Assembly: GCA_027488855.1 (NCBI GenBank)
Contig: JAIYAV010000268.1
Coordinates: forward strand, 1-40,311
DNA from: Saprospiraceae bacterium
Lineage (GTDB): Bacteria > Bacteroidota > Bacteroidia > Chitinophagales > Saprospiraceae
Reading direction: 5' to 3'
DNA length: 40,311 nt
The translations under genes and the position numbers were made by a program. The notes under the pieces were generated by a model, which worked only from the letters and a program-made list of their open reading frames with translations, ran no database searches and was not told the origin of the DNA. Positions 3,897 to 30,873 of the stretch are shown one piece after another. The first letter of the stretch is position 1, and each line of letters starts with the position of its first letter.

Positions 3897-4856
3897 ATGG
3901 TTCTCGTATTTGCTGAAAGCCAAAAAGGAAATTTCAAAAAAACCGCCTTCGAAGCGGTTACTTACGGATATAAAACCGCTCAGGTACTCGGCACCGAATG
4001 TGTTGCCTTGGCCTTGGGTACTGCGCACAATGCGGCTGATCTGGGTTTGTACGGAGCGAACAAGGTATTGCACGTTGCCGATGCAACCCTTGACCAATTC
4101 GACAGCCAGATTTATGCCAAAGTCATTGCCGAGGCCAGCCAACAAGTGGGAGCCAAAGTGATTGTGCTCAGTCACACCTCTACTGGGAAATCGGTCCACG
4201 GCCGTTTGGCAGCCCGTTTGGGTGCAGGTTCCGTAGCTGGAGTCAACAGCATTCCAACTGCTGATGGTGGTTTCAAAGTCAAAAAAGGCGTTTTCTCAGG
4301 GAAAGCCATCGCTGAATATGAAATCAAATCGGAAGTGAAGGTGTTGTCGGTAATGGGCAACTCCTTGCAGCCTGCCGTAGTAGGAAGCGCTGCTCCGGTT
4401 GAAGCCCTCGCGATTGCCGTACCCGCCAGCCGCGTAAAGGTAAAATCGGTGAGTCGAATCGAAGGCATCGTGCCATTACCTGAGGCTGAACTGGTGGTAT
4501 CCGCAGGTCGGGGTATGAAAGGCCCGGAAAACTGGGGCATCGTGGAAGACTTGGCGAATGTGCTAGGCGCTACCACCGCTTGCTCTCGCCCGGTTGCCGA
4601 CGTACACTGGCGCCCTCACCACGAACACGTGGGCCAAACCGGAATCGCCATCCGCCCCAACCTCTATATCGCCATCGGCATTTCCGGTGCCATCCAGCAC
4701 CTCGCCGGGGTCAACAATTCCAAAACCATCGTGGTCATCAACAAAGACCCCGAAGCTCCGTTCTTCAAGGCGGCTGACTACGGCGTAGTAGGCGACCTTT
4801 TTGAGGTAGTGCCGAAGTTGACAGAGGCGTTTAAGCAATTTAAAGCAGCGGAATGA
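3897..4856 (+). CDS. etfA: Electron transfer flavoprotein alpha subunit
   Basis: This is a 319-residue protein. The N-terminal half is the ETF alpha/beta fold ([25 protein letters not shown]). The C-terminal half is the FAD-binding domain, with SAGRGMKG near 202-209, SRPVADVHW at 230-238 and HVGQTGI at 244-250. It forms the heterodimer with EtfB and holds the FAD that shuttles electrons. I chose the ATG at 3897 because the longer frame from 3816 would translate the repeat arms and loop, and homologs begin at MVLVFAE. An ATG at 3892 is out of frame. The usual Shine-Dalgarno region is occupied by the right arm of inverted repeat A. The stop codon TGA (4854-4856) lies inside the left arm of inverted repeat B. 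Confidence 0.94.
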
Positions 4857-4988
4857 GAGATGAAAGATGAGAGATGAAAGATGCTACCGCAGAGACTTAG
4901 ACAAGGTCATCGTCAAAAACGCTGCGGTAGCATCTTTCATCTCTCATCTTTCATCTCTCATCTCTCATCTCTCATCTCTCATCTCTCC
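4853..4988. repeat. Inverted repeat B: 40-bp perfect stem with the CTACCGCAG core
   Basis: Positions 4853-4892 and 4922-4961 are perfect reverse complements over 40 bases. The outer 30 bases are tandem GAGATGAAAGAT-type units; the inner part is GCTACCGCAG/CTGCGGTAGC. The right side carries about four extra GAGATGA units (to 4988), so the arms differ in copy number. The loop is 29 bases and begins AGACTTAGAC. The element lies between two convergent genes, and the stop codons of both are inside its repeat units. No T-tract follows. Confidence 0.92.
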
Positions 4989-5611
4989 TTTAAAACGCTC
5001 CACACCATCCTCGGCGACATCCCGCCCATCCTTACCATTTTTACCCACAACAGGGTCATGTGTTCCAGGTACAGGGCTTGACTTAACGCGCCCGTATCGA
5101 GAGTTTCGAAGCCAAGATCAGTATTGAGTTGGGTAATCTGGGCTTTCGCGTCGGCATCATTTCCACAAATGAACATGGCGGGTTTTACATTGTACTCGGG
5201 AAAACTGCTGTTCTCCAGGTTTTCGTAGCCGTAAATCGTATAGGCTTTGACTACATGGGCATCGGGGGCCAATTCCTGGACAACCTCTGCACCTGAACGT
5301 TCACCTTTGAGTCCATGCGAAACGCCTGGGCCGACGGGATTCGTGCAATCAATGAGCGTTTTTCCCTTGAATTGTAATCCGCTTAGCAGCTCCGAGACCA
5401 CCTTGAAGGGGGTAGCCAGGAACACTACGTCGGCCGCATCGATGGCGGCTTGATGGTTTTGGACAGTCCAATGGGGATTTATCGCTAGTGCCTCACGGAC
5501 GCTATCCGAGTTGCCGTCCGGATGGGCAATGATGATTTGGTGGCCGTGGTGTTGTAGTCGATTGGCGAGGGCAAAACCTACGTTGCCAATGCCGATGAAT
5601 GTGAGGGTCAT
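4979..5611 (-). CDS. NADP-binding oxidoreductase of the F420-dependent reductase (NpdG-like) family
   Basis: This 210-residue protein starts MTLTFIGIGNVGFALANRL. It has a Rossmann GxGxxG at 7-12, followed by the NADP-type segment IIIAHPDGNSDS, then LIDCTNPVG and VKAYTIYGYENLENSSFP. These fit the family annotated 'NADP oxidoreductase, coenzyme F420-dependent', whose members reduce small cofactors or imine/enol substrates. Bacteroidota do not normally make F420, so the substrate is unknown and the F420 label should not be taken literally. The last codons (KER) and the TGA stop come from the right arm of inverted repeat B. The FISUMP-like gene lies 12 bases upstream on the same strand, so the two may be co-transcribed. 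Confidence 0.75.
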   Translation of the reverse strand: MTLTFIGIGNVGFALANRLQHHGHQIIIAHPDGNSDSVREALAINPHWTVQNHQAAIDAADVVFLATPFKVVSELLSGLQFKGKTLIDCTNPVGPGVSHGLKGERSGAEVVQELAPDAHVVKAYTIYGYENLENSSFPEYNVKPAMFICGNDADAKAQITQLNTDLGFETLDTGALSQALYLEHMTLLWVKMVRMGGMSPRMVWSVLKER

Positions 5612-5623
5612 GGTGCTCGATTT

Positions 5624-6184
5624 TTATTCTTCTTTAATTAGGCGAACGGAGCATTTAAGGTCACTTTCTGCATCGGTGATAAAAGGCCATATCTGATCCT
5701 TCTTTTCCGATTTTGGCCCATAAAAATTCTTTAGAAGGATTTGGACAGTTCCATCTGCTTCCACTACTTCGGTAGCGGGTTTCACCCAGTATACATTCTC
5801 CTCGCCCACCTTATAGCGCTGTCCTTCCGAATTCGTAACGCCAGGAAATGAGGCAATGTTCAAGGCGGCTTTGACTTCTTTGCCTACTGATACCGATGTG
5901 TATTCTTCCATCAAGCCAGCACCACAATGGCGTTCCACCTTGCGCCAATCTTTCCAGGTCGGCAAACGCCAGCCAGTTAGTTGTTCGTCCAGTTGTTTGG
6001 CTTCTTTCCAGGAATAAAGCACTTGTTGACAGGTACTATCCAGACATTTGCTGCCGGGAATGGGGACGTGGACATCTTCGGCGGTCCAGGTAACACCGTC
6101 GATGGTAACGGTGAGGAATTGGCCAGATTTGAGTCTTTGTGCGCCAGTAAAAAGCAATAGGCTGATAAATACAAAAAAATACAT
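5624..6184 (-). CDS. Secreted FISUMP-like protein
   Basis: This is a 186-residue protein with an N-terminal signal peptide (MYFFVFISLLLFTGAQ). The body carries GVTWTAEDV near the start, GWRLPTWKDWRKVERHCG in the middle and CSVRLIKEE at the end. This order (opening W-x-A-x-D/N, central GWRLPT, closing C-x-VR-x-I) is the signature of the Fibrobacter succinogenes major paralogous (FISUMP) domain, found in exported proteins of Bacteroidota and Fibrobacteres with unknown function. I chose the ATG at 6184 because the longer frame begins at TTG and adds a basic, non-signal stretch. It probably resides in the periplasm or outside the cell. Confidence 0.7.
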   Translation of the reverse strand: MYFFVFISLLLFTGAQRLKSGQFLTVTIDGVTWTAEDVHVPIPGSKCLDSTCQQVLYSWKEAKQLDEQLTGWRLPTWKDWRKVERHCGAGLMEEYTSVSVGKEVKAALNIASFPGVTNSEGQRYKVGEENVYWVKPATEVVEADGTVQILLKNFYGPKSEKKDQIWPFITDAESDLKCSVRLIKEE

Positions 6185-6238
6185 ATGTATCTTTTTTCTA
6201 CAGTTCAAAAAATTGATCAAATCCTTTCCTCTATCGGA

Positions 6239-6454
6239 CTATTCTTCAATAAATCGACTCTTATTCGTGCTCCACCAATCTTTTTTGATCTCTTCGCCAA
6301 ATGCCTCGATATCCTGGTCAAAATCGATTTTACGTGCCAAGAATTCTACCTTTAAGTAATTCATGATTCTCAATAAATCATCTTCATTGAAGTATTTTTT
6401 ATCCAAGGTGAGTTGTAAAGTCTCTGGAGTATTTTGAACTTGAAATGCTGTCAT
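6239..6454 (-). CDS. Small antitoxin-like protein, apparently without a partner toxin
   Basis: This 71-residue acidic protein (MTAFQVQNTPETLQLTLDKK...) has a predicted short N-terminal strand, a helical middle (LLRIMNYLKVEFLARKIDF) and a C-terminal GEEIKKDWWSTNKSRF. The layout resembles small antitoxins of Bacteroidota type II systems, in which a strand-helix DNA-binding part precedes a toxin-binding tail. The family assignment is tentative. No PIN, RelE or similar small toxin gene follows: the next ORF downstream is the secreted FISUMP-like protein, and upstream is the TPR-like gene. It is either a solitary regulator or a remnant. The start ATG at 6454 is preferred over an upstream in-frame codon at 6499. 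Confidence 0.5.
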   Translation of the reverse strand: MTAFQVQNTPETLQLTLDKKYFNEDDLLRIMNYLKVEFLARKIDFDQDIEAFGEEIKKDWWSTNKSRFIEE

Positions 6455-6531
6455 GGATGAATTTTGGATAAAAATAGCGAATATTTGGAGCATTGTCAAC
6501 CGGAAGATTCAAAGCAGATTCAACTCAGGAA

Positions 6532-7113
6532 CTAGCCTGCTTTCTGAATCTGCTTCAACCATTTCCTCCGCCCTTCTACTCGGTAAGTCACTTTTACTTG
6601 ATTGTCGATGAATTTCAGCACCATATCATTGGCTTCCTGCGGCACCTGGATTTTTACCCGGCCATCGGCAGCGTCCACCCCGATGCGGTGTTTGGTGGAG
6701 TCAACCATGCCCAAAATCCCTTCTACCACACGCAAGATGCCTTTTTCAACTTTGGCGGTTCCACTGGCTTTGCGGTGCTTTTTATTGATTTCTTTGAACA
6801 AGGCGCGCAATTCTGCGGCAATTTCATCCGAAGGGTTCCCACTCAGGGCATGGCTCAACCACTTTTCGGCTTCGCGCAACAAGCCACATTCTTTGGCCAA
6901 AACGGCGGCACTTTTGAGAATGATGGAACGAGTTGGCTCAGCGTCCAACAATTCTAGGTACCCTTGAGCCACTTCTTTTTCCAGCAGGTAAGCTTTTTGG
7001 TACAAATCCAAAGAACGATCAAACTGTCCTTTCTCCTTGGCCATCCAAGCTTCCTGAGCCAGGAGGTTGGCCTGACGGTGGGTACTGCGCAATTGACGTG
7101 CTGTTTGTATCAT
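6532..7113 (-). CDS. TPR-like protein, second gene of an unnamed two-gene module
   Basis: This 193-residue helical protein reads IQTARQLRSTHRQANLLAQEA, then DLYQKAYLLEKEVAQGY, then EPTRSIILKSAAVLAKECG, then LREAEKWLSHALSGNPSDEI. The EPTRS-SAA-L-A-CG-EAE-W/I-GL-G-P pattern is one I recall from small TPR-like proteins in cyanobacteria and other phyla, always as a helical solenoid. The last 60 residues form a separate, probably beta-rich tail (RVKIQVPQEANDMV, NQVKVTYRVEGRRKW). The ATG at 7113 overlaps the stop of the preceding gene (ATGA), so the two are coupled and the longer frame from 7158 is not real. No enzyme motif is visible and no function is known to me. Confidence 0.75.
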   Translation of the reverse strand: MIQTARQLRSTHRQANLLAQEAWMAKEKGQFDRSLDLYQKAYLLEKEVAQGYLELLDAEPTRSIILKSAAVLAKECGLLREAEKWLSHALSGNPSDEIAAELRALFKEINKKHRKASGTAKVEKGILRVVEGILGMVDSTKHRIGVDAADGRVKIQVPQEANDMVLKFIDNQVKVTYRVEGRRKWLKQIQKAG

Positions 7114-7673
7114 TTTTTTACGTAGGAAGCTTTTGGAGTTCCAAACTCGGTTACACAAATATACGCTGGCAAACCGGAATTATCCGATCGCTTGGTCTGT
7201 TGTTTTTTGATCGCCACTCTTTTTTCTACAGTATTGGTTTTGCTCTCCTTGCGAATACCCGACACTTCCAAACGCGCCAGGTAGAAATTGTACTCGTCCT
7301 CTTCATCACAGAGGTAGAAGTCAAAACCATTGTTGCCCATGGTTGGTTCCACGGCGCTGCATTTTTTTACCAAAATGGTGCTGAGGAGCACGGCAATACA
7401 CATCGCGCCGTAGTCGGTGGTACGGCTGGGCTCCTGGTACGATTTGTGGATGTTATCGGTGATTTCTAAGGCCCAGTTCACCTGGATGTTGCTTTTGTCG
7501 CCACTGTCGTTGATGGTGACGGGGAGGACTGTGCCGGATGAGTGGTTTTGTTCATCCATACACACGACGGCGGCTTCCAACATAGCGGTGGCGTAGCCGG
7601 GAGCGAGGGCGTTGAGGGTGGTGACGTGTTCGAGGTGGAGGTGGTGATTCACGGGATGATTATTGTTATTCAC
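7110..7673 (-). CDS. Unnamed 'ARLEVSG' protein, first gene of the two-gene module
   Basis: This 187-residue protein has an N-terminal HHLHLEHVTTLNALAPGYA, a middle RTTDYGAMCIAVLLSTIL, then GFDFYLC, YLARLEVSGIRK and the C-terminal LPAYICVTEFGTP. I recall this order of motifs from unnamed proteins encoded beside a small TPR-like gene in distant bacteria, but I know of no functional assignment. The FDF-acid-ARLEVSG region could be a nuclease-like beta core, which is speculation. The start is a GTG at 7673 inside a tandem repeat; no ATG exists before residue 31, and HHLHLEH would be lost if that were used. The stop overlaps the TPR-like start. The AAA-ATPase gene ends 32 bases upstream on the same strand. 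Confidence 0.72.
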   Translation of the reverse strand: MNNNNHPVNHHLHLEHVTTLNALAPGYATAMLEAAVVCMDEQNHSSGTVLPVTINDSGDKSNIQVNWALEITDNIHKSYQEPSRTTDYGAMCIAVLLSTILVKKCSAVEPTMGNNGFDFYLCDEEDEYNFYLARLEVSGIRKESKTNTVEKRVAIKKQQTKRSDNSGLPAYICVTEFGTPKASYVKK

Positions 7674-7718
7674 TTTTCACTTTTCGCTTTTCATTTTTCA
7701 CTCCCTCACACCCACACC
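7671..7718. repeat. Single-armed 7-bp tandem repeat (GTGAAAA) behind the ATPase gene
   Basis: On the minus strand this is GTGTGGGTGTGA followed by about four units of GTGAAAA/ATGAAAA/GCGAAAA. The ATPase stop codon (7706-7708) lies within it, and the GTG start of the next gene is the last unit. No complementary arm is present. The 13-mer GGTGTGGGTGTGA (7706-7718) recurs exactly behind mraZ at 24933-24945. Confidence 0.7.
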
Positions 7719-9274
7719 GCCAAAATCCGCTTCCCATCCAACTCAATCCATTCCTGTTTCCAACTCTTCACCTCACTATGGTCAAAAATGACCAAATACC
7801 CCGTATCCAGCCCTACCCGATCGAGGTAGCCGAGTAATTGTACCAAGCCTTCCTGGTGGGCAGCCTCGCCGTACCAAATTTTTAATTCGACGATGTATTT
7901 TTCTGCATAATAGGTAATGGCGACGTCGATGCGACGCTCCTCTGAAATTTCAGGCTCTTTAAAGTCGTAGCCACCGCCATTGATGATGGGCTTGATGAAA
8001 GCCAAGAAAATCAGGCGGCCCTGGCGCTCCAAAAAATCGCGGTCTTTTTTGCTGTACTGTTCTTTCATGAAGCGCTGGAAGCGATCCAGCACTTTGGGCA
8101 TATCTAATTTGCGATTGGGCAATTGGTAAATGACTGGAACATTCTCATTCCTAAAAGTGTAAGAAGTTTCCAATTTGGAACTGAAGTAGTTGTAAATCAA
8201 CTCGGCATAAATGCGATTGTGGATGCGCAAGCCACGCCCGTTGGCCAAATACCCGTACATCATACCCAGGGTGATTACGGGGTTGTGGATATTGTAAGTG
8301 ATTGACCTTTCATTCATGACGAGTTCAAAAACCAGGTCCTGTAGTTCGCGGTAGCCTTCCAGGTTTTTGATCAAACTGTCGAAGTTGGTGTTGCTTTCTT
8401 TAACCAATTCGCTGGCTGCATATTCCAAATCAGCAAGCGCCCACTCCTTAGCACCTTTGGCCGGGATGATTTTTTCGGCCAACATTTTGCACAATTTACT
8501 CACCAAAAAGGGATGGCCAGAGGTATACCACACCAACTTCTCTGCAAACACTGGTGCATCAATCTGAATGCCTGCGTCCTTACTGTATTCCTCCAACATG
8601 GGGATGATTTCGGGCGCAGACAAGCTCATGTTTACATCAAAATCCGTAGCAATATTCCAGGGCGAATTCAGGGTTTGAGCGGCATCGGGGCGAAGTTTAA
8701 TTTTGAGGGTTTTGACATCGTGCACCCCGGCGAGGATAACGCTGTGAAAAGTACTTCCGCTACCGCGTAAGGCATCCAGGTATTTGCTGCGCAACATTCC
8801 TAAAAAATGAAGAAAGACTTCGTTGTTGCCACTTTTATCTACTTCATCAATGAGCAGCACCAGCTTTTTTGGGAATTTATGCACCAGATCGCTGATGACG
8901 CGACCAATTTTGGAGAAATCCTGAAGTTCTTCGGCATTTTGCTCCAGCCAAGCCGCTACTTCAGTATTGCCCTGCGCGGCCAGTTCACGGCTCAGCAGCC
9001 CTAAAAACACTTGGCCAAAGCGCAGCGTACTGGAATATTCCCCCTCGCCCAGCGCTTCAAAACTGATGGTGATGGAAAAAAAATCACTTGAATGAGCCAG
9101 GGAGCGCTGGAGGTTCACCAACATGGTCGTTTTGCCAAATTGCCGTGGGCGATTGATGATAAAATACGCTCCACGTTCTACTAGTTCTAAAGTCTGACGC
9201 AATTTGGTCGACACGTCGGCCATATAGTGACGCTCGGGGATGCAGGTACCTGTGATGTTGAAGTATTTGGCCAT
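7706..9274 (-). CDS. AAA-ATPase-like protein with C-terminal PD-(D/E)XK domain (AAA-ATPase_like / PDDEXK_9)
   Basis: This 522-residue protein begins MAKYFNITGTCIPERHYMAD, the standard opening of the AAA-ATPase_like family. A P-loop NRPRQFGKTT lies at 41-50 and a Walker B LVLLIDEVDK near 137-146. A middle helical region covers MLEEYSKDAGI to TSGHPFLVSKLCKML. The C-terminal nuclease-like fold has RRIDVAITY...YIVELKIWYG (D then ExK) followed by GLVQLLGYLDRVG. The family is very common and often multicopy in Bacteroidota; a defence or mobile-element link is suspected but unproven. The start at 9274 is chosen because the longer frame would translate the ftsZ terminator. A -7 box lies just upstream. 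The stop lies in a tandem repeat shared with the mraZ 3' end. Confidence 0.85.
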   Translation of the reverse strand: MAKYFNITGTCIPERHYMADVSTKLRQTLELVERGAYFIINRPRQFGKTTMLVNLQRSLAHSSDFFSITISFEALGEGEYSSTLRFGQVFLGLLSRELAAQGNTEVAAWLEQNAEELQDFSKIGRVISDLVHKFPKKLVLLIDEVDKSGNNEVFLHFLGMLRSKYLDALRGSGSTFHSVILAGVHDVKTLKIKLRPDAAQTLNSPWNIATDFDVNMSLSAPEIIPMLEEYSKDAGIQIDAPVFAEKLVWYTSGHPFLVSKLCKMLAEKIIPAKGAKEWALADLEYAASELVKESNTNFDSLIKNLEGYRELQDLVFELVMNERSITYNIHNPVITLGMMYGYLANGRGLRIHNRIYAELIYNYFSSKLETSYTFRNENVPVIYQLPNRKLDMPKVLDRFQRFMKEQYSKKDRDFLERQGRLIFLAFIKPIINGGGYDFKEPEISEERRIDVAITYYAEKYIVELKIWYGEAAHQEGLVQLLGYLDRVGLDTGYLVIFDHSEVKSWKQEWIELDGKRILAVWV

Positions 9275-9293
9275 TGACGCTTTTATCTTTGCA

Positions 9294-9301
9294 CAAAAAT
9301 A
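9294..9301 (-). promoter_or_regulatory. Candidate -7 box of the AAA-ATPase gene
   Basis: On the minus strand this reads TATTTTTG, matching TAnnTTTG, 19 bases before the ATG, giving a leader of roughly 13 bases. No well-spaced TTTG -33 element is seen. Confidence 0.45.
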
Positions 9302-9334
9302 ATCAATTGATTGCATTAATGCTTGCATCAAAAC

Positions 9335-9370
9335 AAAATGCCCAGCAAGGTTCCCCCTGCCAGGCATTTT
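9335..9370 (-). terminator. Rho-independent terminator of the dcw cluster, behind ftsZ
   Basis: Arms AAAATGCC (9335-9342) and GGCATTTT (9363-9370) form an 8-bp stem. On the minus strand it is followed by a T-rich run (TTTTGTTTTG). It lies 64 bases beyond the ftsZ stop and is the first good terminator found after mraZ. Confidence 0.65.
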
Positions 9371-9433
9371 AAAAGTGTCGCTTACATGATGGAAAACAAA
9401 AAAAATAAAAAAGACTAAAGCGTCACAATAACG

Positions 9434-13249: not shown

Positions 13250-14626
13250 TTATTTCGGGTTGTTTTGTTTTTTTGTACTGTTCAACCAATTTCCAATCGG
13301 TTCTACCAGGGTATCAATGTCTCCGGCACCCAGGGTCAGCAATACTTCCGGTTTGTTGTTTTGCAGGGCTGGCAACAAGTCCACTTTGCTGATTTGGTGT
13401 ACATTGGGGTTCTTCATTAGTTTTACCAATAGGTCAGAACTCACTCCTGGGATCGGTAGTTCCCGGGCCGGGTAAATATCCAACAAGTATATTTCGTCCA
13501 ATTGGTCCAGGGCATCCGCAAAACCGTCGGCGAAGTCGCGGGTACGGCTGAACAAATGCGGCTGAAACACACCTGTAATTTTGGAGTTGGGGAACAATTC
13601 CCGCGCCGCGCCAATGGCCGCATTCAGCTCCGTGGGGTGGTGCGCATAGTCGTCAAAGAATGCCGTTTCTTCATCGCGGTAGATGATTTCAAAACGGCGT
13701 TTCACCCCCCGGAAAGCGGCCAATCCACTGCGAATATCGGCCTCTTTGGCACCCAGTTGCAGCGCAATAGACAGGGCTACGGTGGCATTTTCCACATTGT
13801 GCCGTCCAGGCAGTGGCATCTGCAAACCTTCAATCGTGCCCTGTGGACTGGTATAATCGAACACGAAGTAACCTTTTTCTACCCGAATGTTGTGTGCCTG
13901 ATAATCCCCTCCTTCGACGCCGAAGCTGCGGTACGCAGTGCCATCCTCAAAATGGTGCTGCAAGTTGTGCTGCAACCACAAGGTGCCACCCGGTTTAAGC
14001 TGTTTGGCAAAGGCTTTGAAGCCCGTATTGAGCAGGGTTTCTTCGTCCCCATAAATGTCCAAATGATCGGCATCCATCGACATGATGGACGCGATATCGG
14101 GATAGAGGTGCAAAAAGGAACGATCGAACTCGTCGGCTTCTACCACTACCCAATCGCTGCTACCCAACACGTAGTTGGATTCAAAATTGCGGGCAATACC
14201 TCCCAAAAAGGCGGTACAATCCACTCCGGTGCTGCGCAACAAGTGAGCAGTAAGCGAAGAAGTGGTTGTTTTGCCATGCGTTCCCGCGATGGCCACGGTT
14301 TTCATGCCCCGGCTGATGATGCCCAGTACTTCGGCCCGTTTTTTAATGGGGGTACCATTTTGCAAAAAATGCTGGTACTCCGCATGGCTGGTTGGAACTG
14401 CTGGGGTATACACCACCAAATCAACACCCGTTGGGACCTTGCTCAAATCTTCTTCGTAATGTACATGCATGCCTTCAGCTTCCAACGCGCGGGTCAGTTC
14501 AGTGGAAGTGCGGTCGTAACCATGTACTTCTACTCCACGTTGCAGGAAATAGCGGGCGATGGCACTCATGCCGATGCCGCCAATTCCGATGAAATAAAGC
14601 TTTTTAATGTCTTGAAGGTCAAGCAT
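13250..14626 (-). CDS. murC: UDP-N-acetylmuramate--L-alanine ligase
   Basis: This 458-residue cytoplasmic Mur ligase adds L-alanine to UDP-MurNAc, the first step of stem-peptide synthesis. The N-terminal nucleotide-binding domain has FIGIGGIGMSAIA at 12-24. The ATP-binding P-loop is GTHGKTTTSS at 115-124. The central domain contains VVEADEFDRSF, and the third domain has FDDYAHHPTE and FQPHLFSRTRD. Length and motifs are normal. Its upstream leader is occupied by inverted repeat C, which separates it from murG. Confidence 0.97.
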   Translation of the reverse strand: MLDLQDIKKLYFIGIGGIGMSAIARYFLQRGVEVHGYDRTSTELTRALEAEGMHVHYEEDLSKVPTGVDLVVYTPAVPTSHAEYQHFLQNGTPIKKRAEVLGIISRGMKTVAIAGTHGKTTTSSLTAHLLRSTGVDCTAFLGGIARNFESNYVLGSSDWVVVEADEFDRSFLHLYPDIASIMSMDADHLDIYGDEETLLNTGFKAFAKQLKPGGTLWLQHNLQHHFEDGTAYRSFGVEGGDYQAHNIRVEKGYFVFDYTSPQGTIEGLQMPLPGRHNVENATVALSIALQLGAKEADIRSGLAAFRGVKRRFEIIYRDEETAFFDDYAHHPTELNAAIGAARELFPNSKITGVFQPHLFSRTRDFADGFADALDQLDEIYLLDIYPARELPIPGVSSDLLVKLMKNPNVHQISKVDLLPALQNNKPEVLLTLGAGDIDTLVEPIGNWLNSTKKQNNPK

Positions 14627-14638: not shown

Positions 14639-14746
14639 GGTTGAGAAAGTTTAGGAAGGTTTAGGGAGGTTTAGGCTGCCGCAGCGATTTTGACTATGTC
14701 GCTGCGGTAGCCTAAACCTTCCTCAACCTTCTCAACCTCCCTCAAC
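14639..14746. repeat. Inverted repeat C between murG and murC, with the CCGCAGCGA core
   Basis: The left arm is tandem GTTTAGG/GTTGAGA-type units (14639-14674), the core GCTGCCGCAGCGA...TCGCTGCGGTAGC spans 14675-14711, and the right arm is the complement (14712-14746). The core stem has one mismatch over 13 bp; outer arms pair imperfectly because T and G units alternate differently on the two sides. The murG stop (14732-14734) and its last codons lie inside the right arm. Confidence 0.88.
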
Positions 14747-15844
14747 TAGACTCAGTACTTGCTCCGCAATCTCCTCAGCAGCATTTGGCTTCGCCAGCGC
14801 CAGGATATTTTGAGCAAGGGTGTTGCGTTTGGTTTCGTTTTGCAATAGTTCCAGGGCTGTGGGTAAAAGTGCAGAGACTGTATCCGCATTGCGGACCATG
14901 ATCGCGGCATTTTTATCCACCAAGGCCTGGGCATTTTTCGTTTGGTGGTCTTCCGCTACAAAGGGTGAAGGCACCAAAATGGCGGGTTTCCCTACTAGGC
15001 ACAATTCCGAGATGGTAAGGGCACCTGCGCGTGAGCAAACGACGTCTGCTGCGGCATAAGCCAGATCCATCCGGTCGATAAAGGCCATTAGTTTTACATT
15101 AGGCAACTGTGCCGTTGCACAGTTTTGGTATTTCTCGTAGTGGCTTCCCCCGCATTGCCAAAGCACTTGGATTTCAGGGTTGTTTTGCCAAAAAGCCGTG
15201 TTTTGCGCCATTGCTTCGTTGATCGACAAGGCTCCCAAACTCCCACCGAAAATCAGCAAGGTGGGTTTGTTGGCTTCCAGGCAAAAATGAGTACGCGCTG
15301 CACCAGCATCAGTAGCCTGGGCCACTGCCCGGCGCACCGGATTCCCGGTGAGGACAATTTTGTCCGCCGGGAAAAAGCGCTCCATACCTTCGTAAGCCAC
15401 GCATACTTTTTGCACCCTTTGGCTCAACAACTTATTGGTCACCCCGGCGTAAGAGTTTTGCTCCTGAATCAGGGCAGGTACTCCTTTGCGGGTGGCAATG
15501 TCCAAAAGTGGTCCACTGGCGTAACCACCAACCCCTACTGCTGCTTGTGGCTTGAACTTGCGCACAATGGAGCGGGCCTTGAGCAAACTGTACACCAATT
15601 TTACTGGAAAAAGCAAATTGCGGAGTGACAAAGAGCGTTGGAATCCACTGATCCACAAACCCTCGATCGGGTACCCGGCTTTGGGCACTTTCTCCATTTC
15701 GATTTTTCCTTGTGCACCCACAAAAAGAATCTGCGCACCGGGCACTTTTGCCACAATCGCGTCAGCAATGGCAATCGCCGGGAACACGTGTCCCCCGGTA
15801 CCGCCGCCGCTGATGATGATTCTTGGTGCACTATTTTTTTCCAT
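14732..15844 (-). CDS. murG: UDP-GlcNAc--MurNAc-pentapeptide-PP-undecaprenol GlcNAc transferase
   Basis: This 370-residue peripheral membrane glycosyltransferase makes lipid II from lipid I. The G-rich loop GGGTGGHVFPA lies at 13-23. Further motifs are VGVGGYASGP, LIQEQNSYAG, the donor-site segment IFGGSLGALSIN and SRAGALTISEL. Family length and motifs are normal. The last residues before the stop (VEGG) are encoded by the right arm of inverted repeat C, so the extreme C-terminus is probably repeat-derived. It starts 5 bases after the ftsW stop. Confidence 0.96.
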   Translation of the reverse strand: MEKNSAPRIIISGGGTGGHVFPAIAIADAIVAKVPGAQILFVGAQGKIEMEKVPKAGYPIEGLWISGFQRSLSLRNLLFPVKLVYSLLKARSIVRKFKPQAAVGVGGYASGPLLDIATRKGVPALIQEQNSYAGVTNKLLSQRVQKVCVAYEGMERFFPADKIVLTGNPVRRAVAQATDAGAARTHFCLEANKPTLLIFGGSLGALSINEAMAQNTAFWQNNPEIQVLWQCGGSHYEKYQNCATAQLPNVKLMAFIDRMDLAYAAADVVCSRAGALTISELCLVGKPAILVPSPFVAEDHQTKNAQALVDKNAAIMVRNADTVSALLPTALELLQNETKRNTLAQNILALAKPNAAEEIAEQVLSLVEGG

Positions 15845-16992: not shown

Positions 16993-17080
16993 AGTGATGA
17001 ATGATAAGTGATGAGTGATGAATTTGCTCCGAGCAAGGGGCAACCCATCACTCATCACTTATCATTCATCACTCATCACT
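16993..17080. repeat. Inverted repeat D between murD and ftsW: 28-bp perfect stem
   Basis: Positions 16993-17020 and 17046-17073 are perfect reverse complements over 28 bases, built from AGTGATG/AATGATA-type 7-bp units. The right side has one extra copy of the unit (17074-17080). The 25-base loop contains a mini-hairpin TTGCTCCGAGCAA and lacks the CTACCGCAG core. The stop codon and last codons of murD are inside the right arm; the ftsW start is 4 bases from the left arm. Confidence 0.92.
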
Positions 17081-25392: not shown

Positions 25393-25420
25393 GGATACAC
25401 CTTTAGAAGGTTTGTGTGTC

Positions 25421-25428
25421 CAAAACTA
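25421..25428 (-). promoter_or_regulatory. Candidate -7 box of the mraZ (dcw) promoter
   Basis: On the minus strand TAGTTTTG matches TAnnTTTG and lies 28 bases before the mraZ ATG, predicting a leader of about 20 bases. A TTTG at 25442-25445 could be the -33 element, but the 13-base spacing is short. The MraZ boxes begin 10 bases upstream of the -7 box. Confidence 0.55.
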
Positions 25429-25437
25429 CGGACATTT

Positions 25438-25495
25438 TCCACAAATTTCCACTTTTACCCACTTTTTTAACCAAATTTTCCAACTTTTTTCCCAC
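25438..25495 (-). promoter_or_regulatory. MraZ operator: six phased TGG boxes
   Basis: On the minus strand six (A)GTGG/TTGG boxes have their TGG at 25492-25494, 25480-25482, 25471-25473, 25459-25461, 25449-25451 and 25439-25441. The spacings are 12, 9, 12, 10 and 10 bases, close to one helical turn. Boxes 1 and 4 are full GTGGG, and several are preceded by A-runs (AAAAGTGGG). This matches known MraZ sites in E. coli (TGGGN repeats) and Mollicutes (AAAGTG repeats). The position over the promoter suggests repression by MraZ. Confidence 0.75.
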
Positions 25496-25718
25496 TTTCC
25501 TGTTCCAAAACCTACAATATCACTACTATAATTACAAAATACCTTTTTTGATTACAAAACCAGGCAAGATGGGGTTTATATCCTGTGGGAAAAAGTGGGC
25601 ACAAAAACGTGTTTTGGATTCATTTTGGCCCACAAGGTGTACAATAGAAGTGTACTTCGTATCTTTCAATACAAAAATAAACATTTTTTTGATTTAAAAA
25701 ACTATTTTAAACTTATTT
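25496..25718. other. AT-rich gap upstream of mraZ; a second GTGGG pair
   Basis: No gene is visible in the 326 bases between mraZ and the type IX-sorted protein gene. Beyond the main operator there is a + strand pair of perfect GTGGG boxes at 25585-25589 and 25595-25599, exactly 10 bases apart, and a minus-strand TATTTTTG (25672-25679) that could be a distal -7 box. The remainder is AT-rich without repeats or strong hairpins. Confidence 0.5.
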
Positions 25719-27317
25719 TTATCGTATCAATTGCACCTCACCATAACGGGTTTGTTCACGTCCGTTTTTCAACACGACATTGACTACATAAACGTATAAG
25801 CCCTCGGGAGCTGGTTTGCCTCGCGAGGTACCATCCCAATGGGTAGTGGGTTCTTCGGAAGACAGATCCCTTGCACTGAATACTTGTTCGCCCCACCGGT
25901 CAAATACCCTCAGTGAAACAATCGTCAGCTCAGAGGAATTGGCAAAAAGCCCAAAATTGTCATTTACCCCATCGTCGTTGGGTGAGAAAGCGGTAGGCAG
26001 GTATACTTTAAGGTAGTCCAAATCGAGGTAAACGGTGCTATCACAACCCAGGGTTGATTTGACATTGAGGGCGTAACGCCCTGGCGTACGAATTTGATGG
26101 ATGCCACCAATAGCCACAAAATCACCTTCGAGAATGCGGGTTTGCACAGAATCGATCAAATCGTCTTCGAGATTTAGGCTCAGTGTAACAATACTATCGC
26201 AATTGTAGATGGATTTAAAGGTTTCCACATAAACGCCCTGTCTGCTGATGGTACTGTTTTTGAATTTGAATGAGGTTCCCGGACAAATTTTGTGGGTAAC
26301 CGCCGTTTCGTCAACCGGGATTTCATGGTGGTACACTCCAGTAATGCGGCAATCGTTGGTGGATTCAATCCGCACTTGATAAGCACCTTCTCCTTTGGTC
26401 ACAATTAACTCAGGTTCAGTTTCTCCGACCAGTGCAATTCCTTCCTTGTACCACTGATAGGTGTAGCCATTGATGGTGGGCACACTGAGGATGTGTTTGT
26501 CATTGCAAGGGTGGTTTTGGGGTGAAATGACGTATTCAAAATTGATGCGTTCATCCAGAATGAGGTTGTCAAAATAGTAATAAGTATCGGTTGTCCAGCT
26601 GATTTCTGTACAATCGGGCCCAATGGCAATGGCTTTAATGTCTTCTTTGGGGGTTACATTGATTTCGTATTGTTTCCATTCGTTGACACCACCTACTGAT
26701 ATGCGTCCCAACTCTACCCAACCCGGCCCATTGGTAGGGCAGCCGAAGCGTTCATTTCCTTTGCCAAAAGGCAAGTATTTACAATCTGGTGTTCCAAAAA
26801 ACACCACATCCATTGGAGGAGAGTTGATTCCATGGGTAAAACCAATCCAAAATTTGAAGCGGTAGGCAGTATTGGCTTTGAGTGGGCCCAACAAACAGGC
26901 TCCGGTGTATTCTTTCCACTGAGGGTTTGAATTTTGTTGGCCGAAAGTACCGTTGCGAAAGCCTACCACAGCTTCGCCATCTGGATAGGGCAATGGTACT
27001 GGGAGATTGCTACGACCAGTCCAGCCACAGTTATGGATGTAATCCGTAGTGGCTTCCGAGGCTTGTATCCAGGTAACTGCACAGTTGAGCTGGGACCGAT
27101 CAGTTGGACAACAATTGAATTCTTCAAAAGAGGGATTGGGGATGAGCGAGACGGGTTCGATCACCTTACATTTACAATCAGTGGTGTCATTGAGATCAAT
27201 AAAACCATCGCCATCATCGTCAATGGCATTGTTGCAAATTTCAGTCCGGGCATTTTGTGCGGACAAAGACCCAATTGTCAAAAGGGTCAATCCAAGGGCA
27301 AGGAAAAGCAGTCTCAT
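25719..27317 (-). CDS. Secreted protein with C-terminal gliding/type IX (CHU_C, type B) sorting domain
   Basis: This 532-residue protein begins with a signal peptide (MRLLFLALGLTLLTIGSLSA). Next is a short calcium-binding-like acidic loop (NNAIDDDGDGFIDLND), a cysteine-bearing carbohydrate-module-like region (NPSFEEFNCC, GWTGRSNLPVPLPYPDGEAV, YYYFDNLILDE) and Ig-like segments with YQWYKEG. The C-terminal domain, LPTAFSPNDDGVNDNFG, VFDRWGEQVFSA and WDGTSRGKPAPEGLYVYVV, is the CHU_C signature recognised by the type IX secretion system. It is probably displayed on or released from the cell surface. I chose the ATG at 27317 because the longer frame places 11 polar residues before the signal peptide. 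The ligand is unknown. Confidence 0.88.
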   Translation of the reverse strand: MRLLFLALGLTLLTIGSLSAQNARTEICNNAIDDDGDGFIDLNDTTDCKCKVIEPVSLIPNPSFEEFNCCPTDRSQLNCAVTWIQASEATTDYIHNCGWTGRSNLPVPLPYPDGEAVVGFRNGTFGQQNSNPQWKEYTGACLLGPLKANTAYRFKFWIGFTHGINSPPMDVVFFGTPDCKYLPFGKGNERFGCPTNGPGWVELGRISVGGVNEWKQYEINVTPKEDIKAIAIGPDCTEISWTTDTYYYFDNLILDERINFEYVISPQNHPCNDKHILSVPTINGYTYQWYKEGIALVGETEPELIVTKGEGAYQVRIESTNDCRITGVYHHEIPVDETAVTHKICPGTSFKFKNSTISRQGVYVETFKSIYNCDSIVTLSLNLEDDLIDSVQTRILEGDFVAIGGIHQIRTPGRYALNVKSTLGCDSTVYLDLDYLKVYLPTAFSPNDDGVNDNFGLFANSSELTIVSLRVFDRWGEQVFSARDLSSEEPTTHWDGTSRGKPAPEGLYVYVVNVVLKNGREQTRYGEVQLIR

Positions 27318-27480
27318 AGGCGGTTGGTCATGGATGTAAAATAGATGCACAATCGGTCATTAAACTGTTAATTAGGGCTACACATATTGACCATTTCTAA
27401 AATTTATCCAAACAAGCATTTAAGATAGTAGAATAATTGGAAAAAGGGTAAACTGAAGTTCAGGAATGTTAAATTTGGTC

Positions 27481-27515
27481 GTAGGATTTGCGGCGCTCTG
27501 ATGGCAGCGCCCTAC
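27481..27515. repeat. REP-like hairpin with GTAGGG head
   Basis: GTAGG (27481-27485) and CCTAC (27511-27515) enclose GGCGCT/AGCGCC with a bulge. Read on the minus strand it starts GTAGGGCGCTGCC, the same head as the hairpins behind rsmH. It lies in the 266-base divergent gap between the type IX-sorted and M61 genes, in which a weak + strand -7 candidate TAAATTTG (27470-27477) is the only other signal. Confidence 0.6.
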
Positions 27516-27583
27516 AATGAAGTCCAGGCTTGTCTTTTTGTAAGCATTTCAGCCTTTTTTCATACCCATACGTACGTTAATTT

Positions 27584-29395
27584 ATGCCAATGAAATCTAC
27601 TATTTGCATTCTTAATTTTCTGCTGTTGTGCCGCTTTACCAGTATCTGGGCGAGCCCAAGTTCAATCAATTTCCACATTTCGATGGATCAACCTACCACG
27701 CATACTTTTCAAGTGAAAATGGAATGTAAAGGTTTCAGCGGATCCAGCATTGATTTCAAAATGCCCGTTTGGACACCGGGGTATTACCAACGATTGGATT
27801 TCGCCCAGCACGTTGATCAATTTCAGGCTTTGGACACCAAAGGCAAACCTTTAAAATGGGAAAAAATCAATACAAATACCTGGCGGGTAGTACCTCATCC
27901 GAAGCGGGGCATCGTATTGAGTTATACCGTAAAGACCCAACGTTCCTTTGTAGCCACACCCTATGTAGATGAAGAAAGGGCTTACATCTTACCAGGAGGC
28001 GTATTTATGTATCCCCACGGGCATTTAAGCCATGACTCCAAAATAAAGGTACAGCCCTATTCCGCCTGGAAACAGGTAGCTACCGGGCTGGAGGCTTTAC
28101 CCAATCAAGAATATACATTTGTAGCGCCCAATTTTGATGTCTTGTACGACAGTCCCTTGCTGGTTGGCAATTTGGAAGAACTGCCAGCATTTGAAGTGGC
28201 GGGTAAAAAACACCGCTTTATTGGCTATAAACTCGGCCAGTGTGACAAGGTCAAGTTCATGTCCGACTTGCAAAAAATCGTACAAGCCGCAGCCGATCTC
28301 ATTGGTGACGTCCCTTACAAAGATTACACCTTTATCGCCATTGGCCCGGGAGGTGGAGGAATTGAACACCTCAACTCTACCACTTTTGCCTTTGCAGGTG
28401 AAAGCCTGAGCAATCCACAAAGTCGCCTGCGCACTTTGTTTTTTTTGGCACACGAATATTTTCACCATTACAATGTCAAACGGATTCGCCCCATTGAATT
28501 GGGTCCATTCAATTACGATGAGGGCAGTCGGACCAATCAGCTCTGGATTTCGGAAGGGCTAACCGTGTATTATGAATATTTGCTGCTGCGCCGAGCTGGT
28601 TTGTGCAGTGATGCCGAATTGTTGGAAGCTTTCCGCAACAATATCAGGGCGTTTGAGGACAAACCTGGGCGTTTGTACCAAAATCTGGTGCAGGCCAGTT
28701 ATGAAACCTGGAGTGATGGCCCTTTTGGTCGCACGACTGATGAGGTCAACAAAACCATTTCCTACTACGACAAAGGTCCGGTGGTGGGTTGGTTCTTCGA
28801 CTTGCGCATTCGCCATTTGACCCAAAATAAAAAATCGCTGGACGATGTGATGCGTGCCTTGTATCAGGAGTATTACTTGAAACAGCAAAGAGGGTTTACG
28901 GAAGAAGAATTCCGGCGGGTTTGTGAAAATATTGCTGGTGCTCCTCTTGAAGCCGAGTTTCAGTACGTCAATTCCGTTGCTGAACTGAATTATGCTAAAT
29001 ACCTGGATTACGCAGGGCTAGGTATCGACCTTGCACCAAAGGCTGTTCCCGGTGCCTGGCTGGGGTTGACTACCCGAGTAGCGAAAGACAGCACCGTAGT
29101 TACTGCCGTAGAATACGATTCGCCAGCCTGGAAGGCAGGCCTACGCCGCCGGAATTTTATCTTGGAGGTGTACAATGAACCCGCCAAGACTTTCCCTTTT
29201 GCCAATATGATTAAGGATCAGTTCGCGGGGGATGAGATTGAGTTGATTGTACTGCAAGGTCAGGAAAAGCGTTATCTGCGCTTCATTATGGGTAAAAAAA
29301 AGGAGCGCTCTTTTGAGATGAGTCCGTTGGCTAACCCGGGGAAATTGCAGCGAGCGATTTATGAGGGATGGGTGAATGGGAAGGTTTCACCTTGA
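27584..29395 (+). CDS. M61 family glycyl-aminopeptidase-like metalloprotease with PDZ domain
   Basis: This 603-residue exported protein has a signal peptide (ICILNFLLLCRFTSIWAS). An N-terminal beta domain includes the family phrase MPVWTPGYY and is followed by the catalytic domain. The zinc site is H290-E291-Y-F-H294 with third ligand E324 in LWISEGLTVYYEY; GGGGIEHLNSTT upstream of it is also conserved. A PDZ domain lies at roughly 490-575 (GAWLGLTTRV, AGLRRRNFILEVYN). M61 enzymes remove glycine or alanine from peptide N-termini, probably here in the periplasm. The gene is monocistronic and convergent with the HtrA-like gene. Confidence 0.9.
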   Translation: MPMKSTICILNFLLLCRFTSIWASPSSINFHISMDQPTTHTFQVKMECKGFSGSSIDFKMPVWTPGYYQRLDFAQHVDQFQALDTKGKPLKWEKINTNTWRVVPHPKRGIVLSYTVKTQRSFVATPYVDEERAYILPGGVFMYPHGHLSHDSKIKVQPYSAWKQVATGLEALPNQEYTFVAPNFDVLYDSPLLVGNLEELPAFEVAGKKHRFIGYKLGQCDKVKFMSDLQKIVQAAADLIGDVPYKDYTFIAIGPGGGGIEHLNSTTFAFAGESLSNPQSRLRTLFFLAHEYFHHYNVKRIRPIELGPFNYDEGSRTNQLWISEGLTVYYEYLLLRRAGLCSDAELLEAFRNNIRAFEDKPGRLYQNLVQASYETWSDGPFGRTTDEVNKTISYYDKGPVVGWFFDLRIRHLTQNKKSLDDVMRALYQEYYLKQQRGFTEEEFRRVCENIAGAPLEAEFQYVNSVAELNYAKYLDYAGLGIDLAPKAVPGAWLGLTTRVAKDSTVVTAVEYDSPAWKAGLRRRNFILEVYNEPAKTFPFANMIKDQFAGDEIELIVLQGQEKRYLRFIMGKKKERSFEMSPLANPGKLQRAIYEGWVNGKVSP

Positions 29396-29449
29396 TGACA
29401 ATATTTTGAATTGGGGCAAAAAGATTTATCGCTAATTTTTAATTCCACC

Positions 29450-29577
29450 AAAGCGACATTTTTTAAGCACAAAGGACACCAAGGGGGCACAAAGGACACA
29501 AAGTTAGACGTTGACGACGCTTTGCTTTGTGATCTTTGTGCTGCCCTTGTGTCCTTTGTGCTTAAAAATGTCGCTTT
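29450..29577. repeat. Inverted repeat F between convergent M61 and htrA genes
   Basis: The left arm 29450-29503 and right arm 29520-29577 pair over about 55 bp with several mismatches; the outermost AAAGCGACATTTTT is near perfect. Arms are tandem CACAAAGGACAC-type units. The loop begins GTTAGACG and lacks the CTACCGCAG core. Lying between convergent 3' ends, it could act as a bidirectional stop, but no T-run follows either side. Confidence 0.85.
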
Positions 29578-29592
29578 GAGTAGTTCTTAGAG

Positions 29593-30738
29593 TTACTTCG
29601 AAGCCGCCAAACGCACTTTTACCTTCACTTCCCGCTGATCCCGCAATAGGGTGAGCGTCACCTCATCCCCAGCTTGGTAGTTCTCCAACTCCAGAATCAG
29701 TTCTTCTTTGGTAGCAATCCGTTTGTTGTTCATGGCCATGATGATGTCTCCCAAAACGATGCGTCCGTATTCGTCGCGGCGGGTTGCGCGCAATCCAGCA
29801 CTCGCGGCCGGGCCACCTTTGATCACGTCCATGACAAGTGGCCCCTCCAATTGGTTGCGCTTGATGTCGGAAGTTTCCAGGAGTTCTACCCCGATGGTGG
29901 GGCGCATGATTTTGCCGTATTTGATCAATTCAGGCACCGCCCAGCGCACTACTGCGACCGGAATAGAAAAACCAATCCCTGCGGAGGCACCAGATGGGCT
30001 ATAAATCGCGGTATTCACCCCAATGAGGCGGCCCGAAGAATCCAATAAAGGCCCGCCAGAGTTACCGGGGTTAATGGCGGCATCGGTTTGAATGGCATCA
30101 CGCACTGGGAAGCCACTTTCCGTTTGAATTTCCCGGCCCAAGGCACTGACAATCCCGGTAGTCAAGGTTTGGTCCAAACCGAAGGGGTTACCAATGGCGT
30201 ATACCGATTGCCCCACGCGCAAGTCCTCCGAAGTACCCACTGGAATCGGAACCATTTTACTATTGGGCGCTTTAATTTTTAGTACCGCAAGGTCTTTTTC
30301 GGGCGCAGAACCTACGAGCTCCGCATCCCAGGTACTGCGATCAGCCAAGGTAACCTGGGCTTTGGAGGCACCCTGAATCACGTGGTAATTGGTGATGATG
30401 TGCCCACTACGATCCCAAACAAACCCGGAGCCCGATCCCTGCGGAATTTCCATGACGTTGCGGGACCATAAATCGCGGCGCACCACCGAGGTCGTGATGT
30501 AACATACGCTGGGTGCAGCCCGCTCAAACAGGTCGATGGTATGTGATTCTTCGGGAGTCATGCCTTCCCGTACTCTAGCAACCCGAGTGGGTAAGGAGCT
30601 GTGCCCATTTTTGTCTCTGGCCACTACTTCAGTGCCAGATTCTTCATTGTTGTCTTTGTTTGTCCAAGCTGCGCCGGCAAAAAAGGCACCGACCAGGAGG
30701 AGGAGTGCAAGTGTGATGCGCATAAAGCCAGATGTCAT
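29593..30738 (-). CDS. HtrA/DegS-type serine protease with one PDZ domain
   Basis: This 381-residue protein has an N-terminal hydrophobic segment at ~6-24 that serves as a membrane anchor or signal peptide. The trypsin-like domain has the triad H119 (TNYHVIQG), D149 (EKDLAVLKI) and S227 (NPGNSGGPLLD). A single C-terminal PDZ domain (GPLVMDVIKGGPAASAG) follows. One PDZ and an anchor is the DegS architecture; DegP has two. It would degrade or signal on misfolded envelope proteins. The start is the ATG at 30738 (MTSGFM), though MRITLAL at 30723 is also plausible. Inverted repeat E lies immediately upstream. Confidence 0.92.
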   Translation of the reverse strand: MTSGFMRITLALLLLVGAFFAGAAWTNKDNNEESGTEVVARDKNGHSSLPTRVARVREGMTPEESHTIDLFERAAPSVCYITTSVVRRDLWSRNVMEIPQGSGSGFVWDRSGHIITNYHVIQGASKAQVTLADRSTWDAELVGSAPEKDLAVLKIKAPNSKMVPIPVGTSEDLRVGQSVYAIGNPFGLDQTLTTGIVSALGREIQTESGFPVRDAIQTDAAINPGNSGGPLLDSSGRLIGVNTAIYSPSGASAGIGFSIPVAVVRWAVPELIKYGKIMRPTIGVELLETSDIKRNQLEGPLVMDVIKGGPAASAGLRATRRDEYGRIVLGDIIMAMNNKRIATKEELILELENYQAGDEVTLTLLRDQREVKVKVRLAASK

Positions 30739-30746
30739 GGTCAAGT

Positions 30747-30873
30747 AGTTGAAATGTTTAGAGTTGAAATGTTGAAAAAAGTTGAAAAGTTGAGGCTACC
30801 GCAGCGACTTGGAGACAGCCTTAGTCTAAGTCGCTGCGGTAGCCTCTACTTTTCAACCCTTCAACCCTTCAAC
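30747..30873. repeat. Inverted repeat E upstream of htrA: GTTGAAAAG arms around the CTACCGCAGCGAC core
   Basis: The inner 16 bp GCTACCGCAGCGACTT/AAGTCGCTGCGGTAGC are a perfect stem starting at 30795. It continues outward as GTTGAAAAGTTGAG/CTCTACTTTTCAAC with a single mismatch, giving 29 of 30 paired. Beyond that, tandem GTTGAAATG or GTTGAAGGG units differ in number on each side. The element fills the gap between the second paralog gene and htrA, both on the minus strand. Confidence 0.92.

Follow-up and report, generated by a model that had tools for sequence, protein, structure and literature searches.

The stretch of DNA considered here (the window, 40,311 nucleotides) is a 40-kb contig of a Saprospiraceae genome of 8.37 Mb in 422 contigs, and it carries four long hairpins, designated A, B, C and E, in which a shared near-palindromic core lies between arms built of short tandem words that differ from one hairpin to the next. 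The question raised by this locus is by what process a stem can change its sequence on both sides and remain a stem. The original prediction, drawn from the letters of the window, had offered several answers, from arm rewriting by template switching to a mobile hairpin or a structured RNA, and we followed them up in a genus set of five genomes, the genus being taken as Haliscomenobacter: the window's own genome (G000) and four others (G001, G002, G003 and G004). Where it aligns in blocks, the window shares mostly 87-97% identity with G004, 85-95% with G001, 74-87% with G002 and less with G003; G001 is 86% complete.

All four elements are real and stand where they had been placed (Table 1). Folded as single-stranded DNA, they reach z scores of -10 to -14 against shuffles, and an ungapped hairpin detector returned six hairpins in the window and none in five Markov-1 simulations. 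The half-core CTACCGCAGCGAC is exact on both sides of E (30796-30808 and 30830-30842), has 2 and 0 mismatches in C and 1 and 2 in B; with up to three mismatches it matches the window 17 times against 5.5 expected, a number reached by none of 100 shuffles. Element A holds a right half-core only (3830-3849, GTCTAAGTCACTCGCGGAAG, with the CGAGCG-type variant GTCGCTCGCGGTAG, read by eye).

Turnover of whole hairpins at sites that persist

The comparison of G000 with G004 spanned about 217 kb of orthologous sequence and gave 47 non-redundant orthologous gaps with flanks in both genomes. At 22 of them, with flanks 89-97% identical, at least one genome has a hairpin with tandem arms, assigned by word counts to a class: T1 (GTTGAG/GTTTAG/GTTGAA), T2 (GTTCCA), T3 (GTTCGA, seen at orthologous gaps of G002), T4 (RTGAAAA), T5 (ATGAGAG) or T6 (RTGATGA). 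Both genomes hold a hairpin at 18 of these 22 sites (L190:2857 by eye; L numbers are our locus labels), which independent hits would produce with a probability of about 3e-16, the background in the genome samples being 137 such hairpins, 131 of them in gaps, for 1,594 gaps between genes taken from a simple call of the longest open reading frames.

At 13 of the 18 sites the two hairpins are unlike in arm class, in repeat length or at the tip, a judgement made in part by eye from printed sequence (as for tip replacement). The arm class itself has switched at six, from G000 to G004: T1 with core to T2 with a second tip module, SC, at A; T5 with core to T6 at B; T5 to T4 at L142:8938; AGCAATC words to T2 at L143:3062; T1 with core to T2 at L168:17808; and SC to T2 at L190:2857. 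The class was kept at a further seven, with a change of unit length, word or tip (E, L132:15597, L132:17461, L142:14354, L144:2305, L184:18396 and L008), and at five the hairpin is recognisably the same (C, with its tip inverted; the hairpin at 16993; L142:11422; L225:7859; and L168:7169, which has an SC tip in G004).

The range widens across the other genomes. Site A is T1, T2, T3 or nothing, with GTTCCA arms and an SC tip in G004, GTTCGA arms in G002 and, by eye, no hairpin in G001 (a 17-base gap) or G003. Site B, compared in three genomes, is T5 in G000 and coreless in the other two, with T6 arms (ATGATGA) in G004 and T4 arms (ATGAAAA) in G001, and E is T1 of three kinds or T3, with 9-10-mer arms and a different tip in G004 and GTTCGAG arms in G002. 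The hairpin at 16993-17073 is the same in G004 and has GTGAAAA/GCGAAAA-type arms in G001 and G002, and the short hairpin at 32216-32266 corresponds in G004 to a GTTCCA tandem-arm hairpin with another tip. Hairpins likewise differ among genomes at L126:16474, L169:6490, L169:10832 and L176:9698.

Within a genome the repeat unit is far more uniform: T1 words are spaced by 8 bases in 126 of 144 intervals in G000 and by 9-10 in 200 of 220 in G004, throughout the arm, and among 11 orthologous T1-T1 sites the unit length differs in this way (8 vs 9-10) at eight and agrees at three. Class counts in an enlarged sample (1,203,419 bases of G000 and 1,082,219 of G004, 2.29 Mb in all) also set the two species apart, with 8 T5 hairpins in G000 vs 0 in G004, 1 vs 10 of T6 and 3 vs 22 of T2. 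At L008, where an 8-type hairpin in G000 faces a 10-type with another tip in G004, the adjacent flanks are identical at 60 of 60 and 54 of 55 positions, so that the exchange ends at the edges of the hairpin. Whole hairpins thus turn over at persisting sites, and the repeat unit is species-wide. Neither of these features had been noticed in the original prediction, nor had the multiplicity of tips or the placement directly behind stop codons.

Interchangeable tips that invert in place

In a first sample of 833,666 bases of G000 and 770,912 of G004, the detector found 146 and 121 hairpins, respectively, and none in Markov-1 simulations of 20 stretches each. Many hairpin families are present, and those with tandem arms draw on a few words of 7-10 bases. 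The enlarged sample holds 147 tandem-arm hairpins, and in it the core, a 47-bp near-palindrome with the consensus CTACCGCAGCGACTTAGAC-loop-GTCTAAGTCGCTGCGGTAG (variant CTACCGCGAGCGAC), forms the tip in 71 of 79 T1 hairpins (SC being present as well in two), 6 of 24 T4, 4 of 8 T5, 3 of 11 T6 and none of 25 T2 (two with SC), as well as in 10 of 229 other hairpins. The SC tip (CACTGAGCGAAGTCGAAGTG) was found 17 times, and in 11 of these copies 20 or more of the 30 arm positions next to it are paired; the arms around it vary from site to site, one orthologous pair excepted. A third tip accompanies T4 (GTGAAAA) arms in 3 of 24 cases. Arms and tips recombine as modules, with two or more tips in use besides the core. 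At L179 926-1038 and L161 9487-9598 an SC tip lies inside the core stem, as would result if one tip were inserted into another's loop.

The arms had been predicted to be private to each site. They do differ among A, B, C and E; the same words, however, recur at many other sites. The original prediction had also named two outcomes that would count against it. One was identical arms at all copies, as in an ordinary miniature inverted-repeat transposable element (MITE) derived from an insertion sequence: here, four word classes (GTTGAG, RTGAAAA, ATGAGAG and RTGATGA) flank the same core, and no single terminal sequence is common to all copies. The other was a core found nowhere else, whereas further copies occur in G000 and, exact in both halves, in three of the four other genomes of the genus (5 times in G000, 7 in G001, 6 in G002, 16 in G004 and 0 in G003). 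With up to three mismatches, a 15-base half-core matches G000 at 581 places, against 461 for a reversed control.

Outside the genus, an exact double half-core is absent from all 55 genomes searched within its family or order. The T1 pattern occurs in all five genus genomes and the T4 pattern in four of the five, and both in 0 of 114 other relatives. A scan of a species-genome collection gave 23 stretches, all in two metagenome-assembled genomes that match G004 and G001 in match positions; it missed G002 despite its six exact cores and is thus incomplete for the genus. Within the searches made, the modular hairpins were found in one genus only.

Since the core is asymmetric, its direction can be read. 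It is comparable at ten sites, three of them unclear; of the seven clear calls, two have the same direction in every comparison and five are flipped: C, where the tip in G004 is inverted relative to G000 and G001 and the outer arms are conserved around the flip; L184:18396; E (G001 vs G004); L126:12236, where the G001 tip approximates the reverse complement of the G004 tip (score 28 vs 4) between similar arms; and L126:13732 (G001 vs G000 and G004). One flip was seen in another hairpin family, at L236:6637. Tips invert in place between species, and the spacer inversion expected of inverted repeats shaped by template switching is therefore found here between close relatives.

Matched arms and the process behind them

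Complementarity of the arms within each element, as predicted, is borne out well beyond the window. Among 95 core elements (38 from G000, 44 from G004, 10 from G001 and 3 from G002, many located via the core and hence a non-random sample), the left arm agrees with its own right arm, compared at equal distances from the core, in 79-97% of cases at positions 1-15 and 60% at position 22, falling to background near 40 nt, against 31-55% for the arms of other copies at positions 2-15. Private arms in the strict sense were rejected: just 5 of the 95 left arms find a closer match in their own right arm than in any other left arm, because the words are shared. Between G000 and G004, 20 of the 47 sites could be aligned (578 pairs, alignments within tandem repeats being uncertain) and show 10 mirrored, 2 unpaired double and 52 one-sided changes, where about 0.8 mirrored changes are expected from the one-sided rate if the arms changed independently. 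At L169:6490, G000 and G001 differ by two mirrored substitutions and by seven extra bases in both arms, with flanks and outer arms alike; copying of one arm onto the other in place is supported at single sites such as this one and L203:12053. On the sense strand, the co-directional tandem-arm stems contain 71 G.U, 73 A.C and 68 transversion mismatches besides 2,376 paired positions, and other families 67 G.U and 66 A.C; as G.U equals A.C, selection on RNA pairing does not explain the matched arms.

Taken together, the match of each arm to its own partner, the flips of tips in place and the lack of a G.U excess are best fitted by a process at the DNA level, such as template switching. The reading we hold, tentatively and with slightly less than an even chance of being right, is that of a modular population of intergenic hairpins subject to template switching within sites and overwriting between sites. 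Each arm would consist of about 3-4 copies of a 7-10-base word facing its complement, around one of several interchangeable tips (the 47-bp core, SC and the third tip that goes with GTGAAAA arms). Within a site, a replicating strand would fold back or switch to the other arm, by which the tip is inverted and one arm copied onto the other, and slippage would alter the number of units; template switching would bring about both the inverted tip and the copied arm. Between sites, one hairpin would be overwritten by another, most likely when dispersed hairpins engage in intermolecular template switching or gene conversion, and a species-wide repeat unit could in this way spread over persisting sites. 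No enzyme encoded by the hairpins would be required, and the persistence of sites may partly reflect selection for some hairpin at gene 3' ends. A bolder version, which we find doubtful, is that these sites are self-perpetuating sockets, copied, repaired and overwritten by hairpins alone in an enzyme-free, replication-born conversion of hairpin by hairpin, with concerted evolution as its outcome and the hairpin as a replication parasite of gene ends.

Several observations weigh against this reading. The hairpin is missing from one genome at 4 of the 22 sites, a pattern that insertion or deletion would leave; no event of ectopic conversion was observed, and no donor hairpin was identified; the class switches, such as GTTGAG to GTTCCA, share little homology; and no gradient of unit length runs along the arms, so that no conversion tracts ending within them were detected. 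Of the 95 left arms, only 8 find their single best match in their own right arm. Six of the ten mirrored changes lie in exchanged hairpins (E, L132:15597, L142:14354, L144:2305 and L008) and the other four in two short hairpins of no tandem class (L156:6417 and L203:12053), while the five sites with the same tandem-arm hairpin in G000 and G004 show no mirrored change, 12 one-sided ones and 1 unpaired double one; copying in place is therefore not seen for tandem arms between these genomes. Equal numbers of G.U and A.C would also be expected from the neutral decay of freshly inserted perfect palindromes. The original prediction of arm rewriting by template switching with slippage is supported as far as the DNA-level process is concerned, whereas rewriting purely in place was not upheld at those five sites.

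Three further candidates were rejected. Replacement of arms from the inside out would leave a gradient of unit length along the arms, and none was found; a fold-back model, in which the tip makes an inverted copy of the neighbouring DNA, found no single-arm state at three aligned SC sites (by eye); and loss of SbcCD as the reason for tolerating palindromes conflicts with SbcD scoring above cut-off in four of the five genomes, the exception being the incomplete G001.

Ordinary mobile palindromes of MITE-like or repetitive extragenic palindromic (REP)-like type, in several subfamilies, might instead be inserted repeatedly into the same short gaps and deleted quickly, an explanation that we consider unlikely. 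It would account for L156:8166, L254:11405 and L161:5927, which are filled in G004 and empty in G000, for species-specific subfamilies that resemble recent bursts, and for the paired interspecies differences lying mostly in exchanged hairpins; nested tips (L179:926 and L161:9487) suggest insertion into loops, and G000 has 13 Y1 transposase matches. However, double occupancy of 18 in 22 far exceeds independent hits on about 8% of gaps, the exchange at L008 lies within nearly unchanged flanks, tips flip inside otherwise like hairpins (C and L126:12236), and two empty sites judged by eye show no clear target-site duplication, at most TCA at L156:8166. Persistence is a weaker argument: at 25 gaps without tandem-arm hairpins, other families kept the hairpin at 12, lost it at 10 and are unclear at 3 (all by eye), a contrast with 18 of 22 that gives P 0.03, or 0.10 without the unclear sites. 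The non-autonomous mobile hairpin of the original prediction may still apply, given that L156:8166 and L254:11405 are empty in G000. A narrower form, in which the core is a GTAG-type REP moved by a REP-associated tyrosine transposase (RAYT, Y1), is highly improbable and was rejected as the origin of the core. The core does end in GTAG, and Y1_Tnp matches occur in all five genus genomes; yet at the 10 Y1 loci examined, out of 38 matches, no core hairpin accompanies the gene, and there are only scattered half-core-like matches with up to three mismatches; moreover, CTAC/GTAG stands at both ends of the core and is base-paired, where a tag unpaired at one end is expected.

A function in RNA, as a 3'-end structure of the mRNA (terminator, stability or processing) whose stem is kept by compensatory substitutions under selection, is suggested by where the hairpins lie, and we judge it quite unlikely as the explanation of the paired arms. 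The start of tandem-arm hairpins lies a median of 4.5 nt after the stop codon of the preceding gene (quartiles -0.25 and 14 in 84 co-directional cases), against 33 nt for other families (121 cases), and their end a median of 22.5 nt ahead of the following one; divergent gene pairs have proportionally fewer of them (12 in 280 gaps) than co-directional (84 in 1,038) or convergent pairs (35 in 276). Moreover, at L126:16474 a hairpin or short stem-loop, of four kinds, stands behind the same gene in all five genomes (by eye). Against such a function, the sense strand has no excess of wobble pairs, and TTTT follows within 15 nt of the stem in 19 of 84 cases, against a background of 363 in 2,151 (17%), which does not bear out the T run of an intrinsic terminator. 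The stems, at 25-50 bp, also exceed the length that a terminator requires. By eye, site A has no hairpin in G001 and G003, nor has L126:12236 in G002, and scans of the window with Rfam and for tRNAs gave no match. RNA function at gene 3' ends may nevertheless account for the persistence of sites.

The arms often supply the upstream stop codon, about a quarter of the 84 hairpins beginning at or before the called stop: the TGA of the ETF (electron transfer flavoprotein) alpha gene (4854-4856) falls within the left arm of B, and the stop of the murD-like gene (17062-17064) within the right arm of the hairpin at 16993-17073. The left-arm words GTTGAG, GTTTAG and ATGA contain TGA or TAG.

Described systems and further features of the window

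The closest described case is the P6b stem of the Nostoc trnL intron, in which degenerate 7-base repeats pair, vary in copy number and are accompanied by extra elements (PMC4476775, PMC3488679); the stem is built on one of two repeat classes, and one class has taken the place of the other several times independently, probably by replacement of the entire region (PMC4476775). The likeness is one of mode, in that a stem made of short, degenerate inverted repeats is exchanged in its entirety from one lineage to another, and we claim no kinship of sequence. P6b is a single intron locus, whereas here many intergenic sites per genome are involved, with units of 7-10 nt and in another phylum, and interchangeable tips, a species-wide unit length and tip inversion set the present hairpins apart from what is described there.

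Template switching at quasipalindromes is reported to yield arm homogenisation and spacer inversion among its products (PMC8604942) and to be able to create and maintain stems (PMC8794818); in the excerpts considered, it is described without the whole-hairpin exchange and the genome-wide unit present here. Replacement of segments inside unchanged flanks is common in three bacterial species, and homology-assisted illegitimate recombination has been proposed for it (PMC2884548), those loci being an instance of general microdiversity, while here hairpin is replaced by hairpin. GTAG- or CGTC-tagged REPs are small, dispersed, high-copy palindromes with an unpaired tag at one end, the GTAG ones often near a RAYT gene (PMC3733652); unlike these, the present hairpins vary their arms in pairs and showed no RAYT link at the 10 Y1 loci examined. 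In Nematomorpha mitochondria, the inverted-repeat arms of coding palindromes evolve in concert, with template switching as the proposed cause (PMC6649704), yet these lie inside protein genes and, as far as the excerpt goes, lack tandem words and shared tips, whereas our hairpins are intergenic. Our literature search turned up no paper describing these hairpin elements. Cyanobacterial small dispersed repeats (SDRs), the subject of work said to be by Elhai in 2008, are reportedly very small mobile modules, some of them within repeat-built stems. One of them, SDR5, has a precise insertion point in HIP1 (PMC4390886). In the available text of the Haliscomenobacter hydrossis genome paper, 'repeat' is mentioned for CRISPR and an assembly tool only (PMC3156403).

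The novelty, then, lies in the scale, in tips that are interchangeable and were observed to invert, and in a species-wide unit; the underlying processes were already known. Template switching is usually inferred from single events, and one genus here supplies very many natural replicates, in which close relatives (and a cultured type strain, if G002 is one) let tip inversion and hairpin exchange be read and timed. The case touches the open question of whether RNA function follows from paired differences in a stem: here such differences occur between species in long stems with no sign of selection at the RNA level, a warning for RNA discovery based on covariation, with a possible parallel in the stem replacements at the Nostoc locus.

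The hairpins of the window and the genes beside them are collected in Table 1. The Mur ligase gene is presumably murC-like, a name taken from gene order, and we assume the glycosyltransferase gene to be murG-like.

Table 1. Positions of hairpins and neighbouring genes in the window
Feature	Coordinates	Strand	Composition or domains	Setting
Element A	3788..3891		arms of GTTGAGAA units 3791-3825 / 3854-3888	between two ETF genes
Element B	4853..4990		ATGAGAG/ATGAAAG arms 4853-4883 / 4931-4987; core 4884-4930	
Element C	14639..14746		GTTTAGG/GTTGAGG 9-10-mer arms; core 14676-14710	between murG-like and murC-like genes
Element E	30747..30873		GTTGAAAA arms; core 30796-30842, both half-cores exact	
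Coreless tandem-arm hairpin	16993..17073		RTGATGA words	between ftsW-like and murD-like genes
Short hairpin	32216..32266		CCAGGGTTCA.../...TGAACCCTGG around second tip module SC (32232-32251)	
Hairpin of another dispersed family	29460..29568		CACAAAGGA words, core absent	
ETF domain protein	3042..3785	+	PF01012	electron transfer flavoprotein beta, by position
ETF alpha	3897..4856	+	PF01012, PF00766	
Mur ligase (presumably murC-like)	13250..14626	-	PF01225, PF08245, PF02875	
Glycosyltransferase 28 (presumably murG-like)	14732..15844	-	PF03033, PF04101	
Trypsin-like protease with PDZ domain	29593..30744	-	PF13365, PF13180	beside E

The hairpin at 29460-29568 belongs to a family of CACAAAGGA words, with GTTAGACGTTGAC near the tip, that has dozens of matches per genome and many places in G001, G002 and G004; its orthologous gap holds a different hairpin (TTAGGTG words) in G004 and measures 42 bases in G001. 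Comparison by eye of L126 16474-16554 with L261 and L262 (G004 and G001) places an CACAAAGGA hairpin between the mutually pairing stretches TTGAAATAACAG and CTGTTTTTTCAA, and the arrangement at L261/L262 looks as though this hairpin had inserted itself into the loop of one already present there. A double hairpin of CTAAGGTG/ACCTTAGA words at 2330-2570 of the window corresponds in G004 to one shorter hairpin of the same family, G001 having the long form. Further families with quasi-tandem words of 7-9 bases are those of ATTTCGG (L171, L136, L161) and AACGGATT (L131, L132, L137).

At Y1 loci of G001, G004 and G002 (L207 72-107, L208 1235-1284 and L214 1273-1308) a perfect loopless palindrome AAAAGGCGATGTTCCAC/GTGGAACATCGCCTTTT, or one close to it, was found, a possible partner of that Y1 transposase. 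Another Y1 locus, L211 2010-2307, has an GTCCCTAAAGGGACTCGGG palindrome like that at L139 18859 in G000, a candidate pair of REP and transposase distinct from the core. Finally, tandem arrays of GTGAAAA (L169 1-188) match the ends of several contigs of G004, with up to 100% identity over 79 bases, and hairpins of this type may help to fragment draft assemblies.

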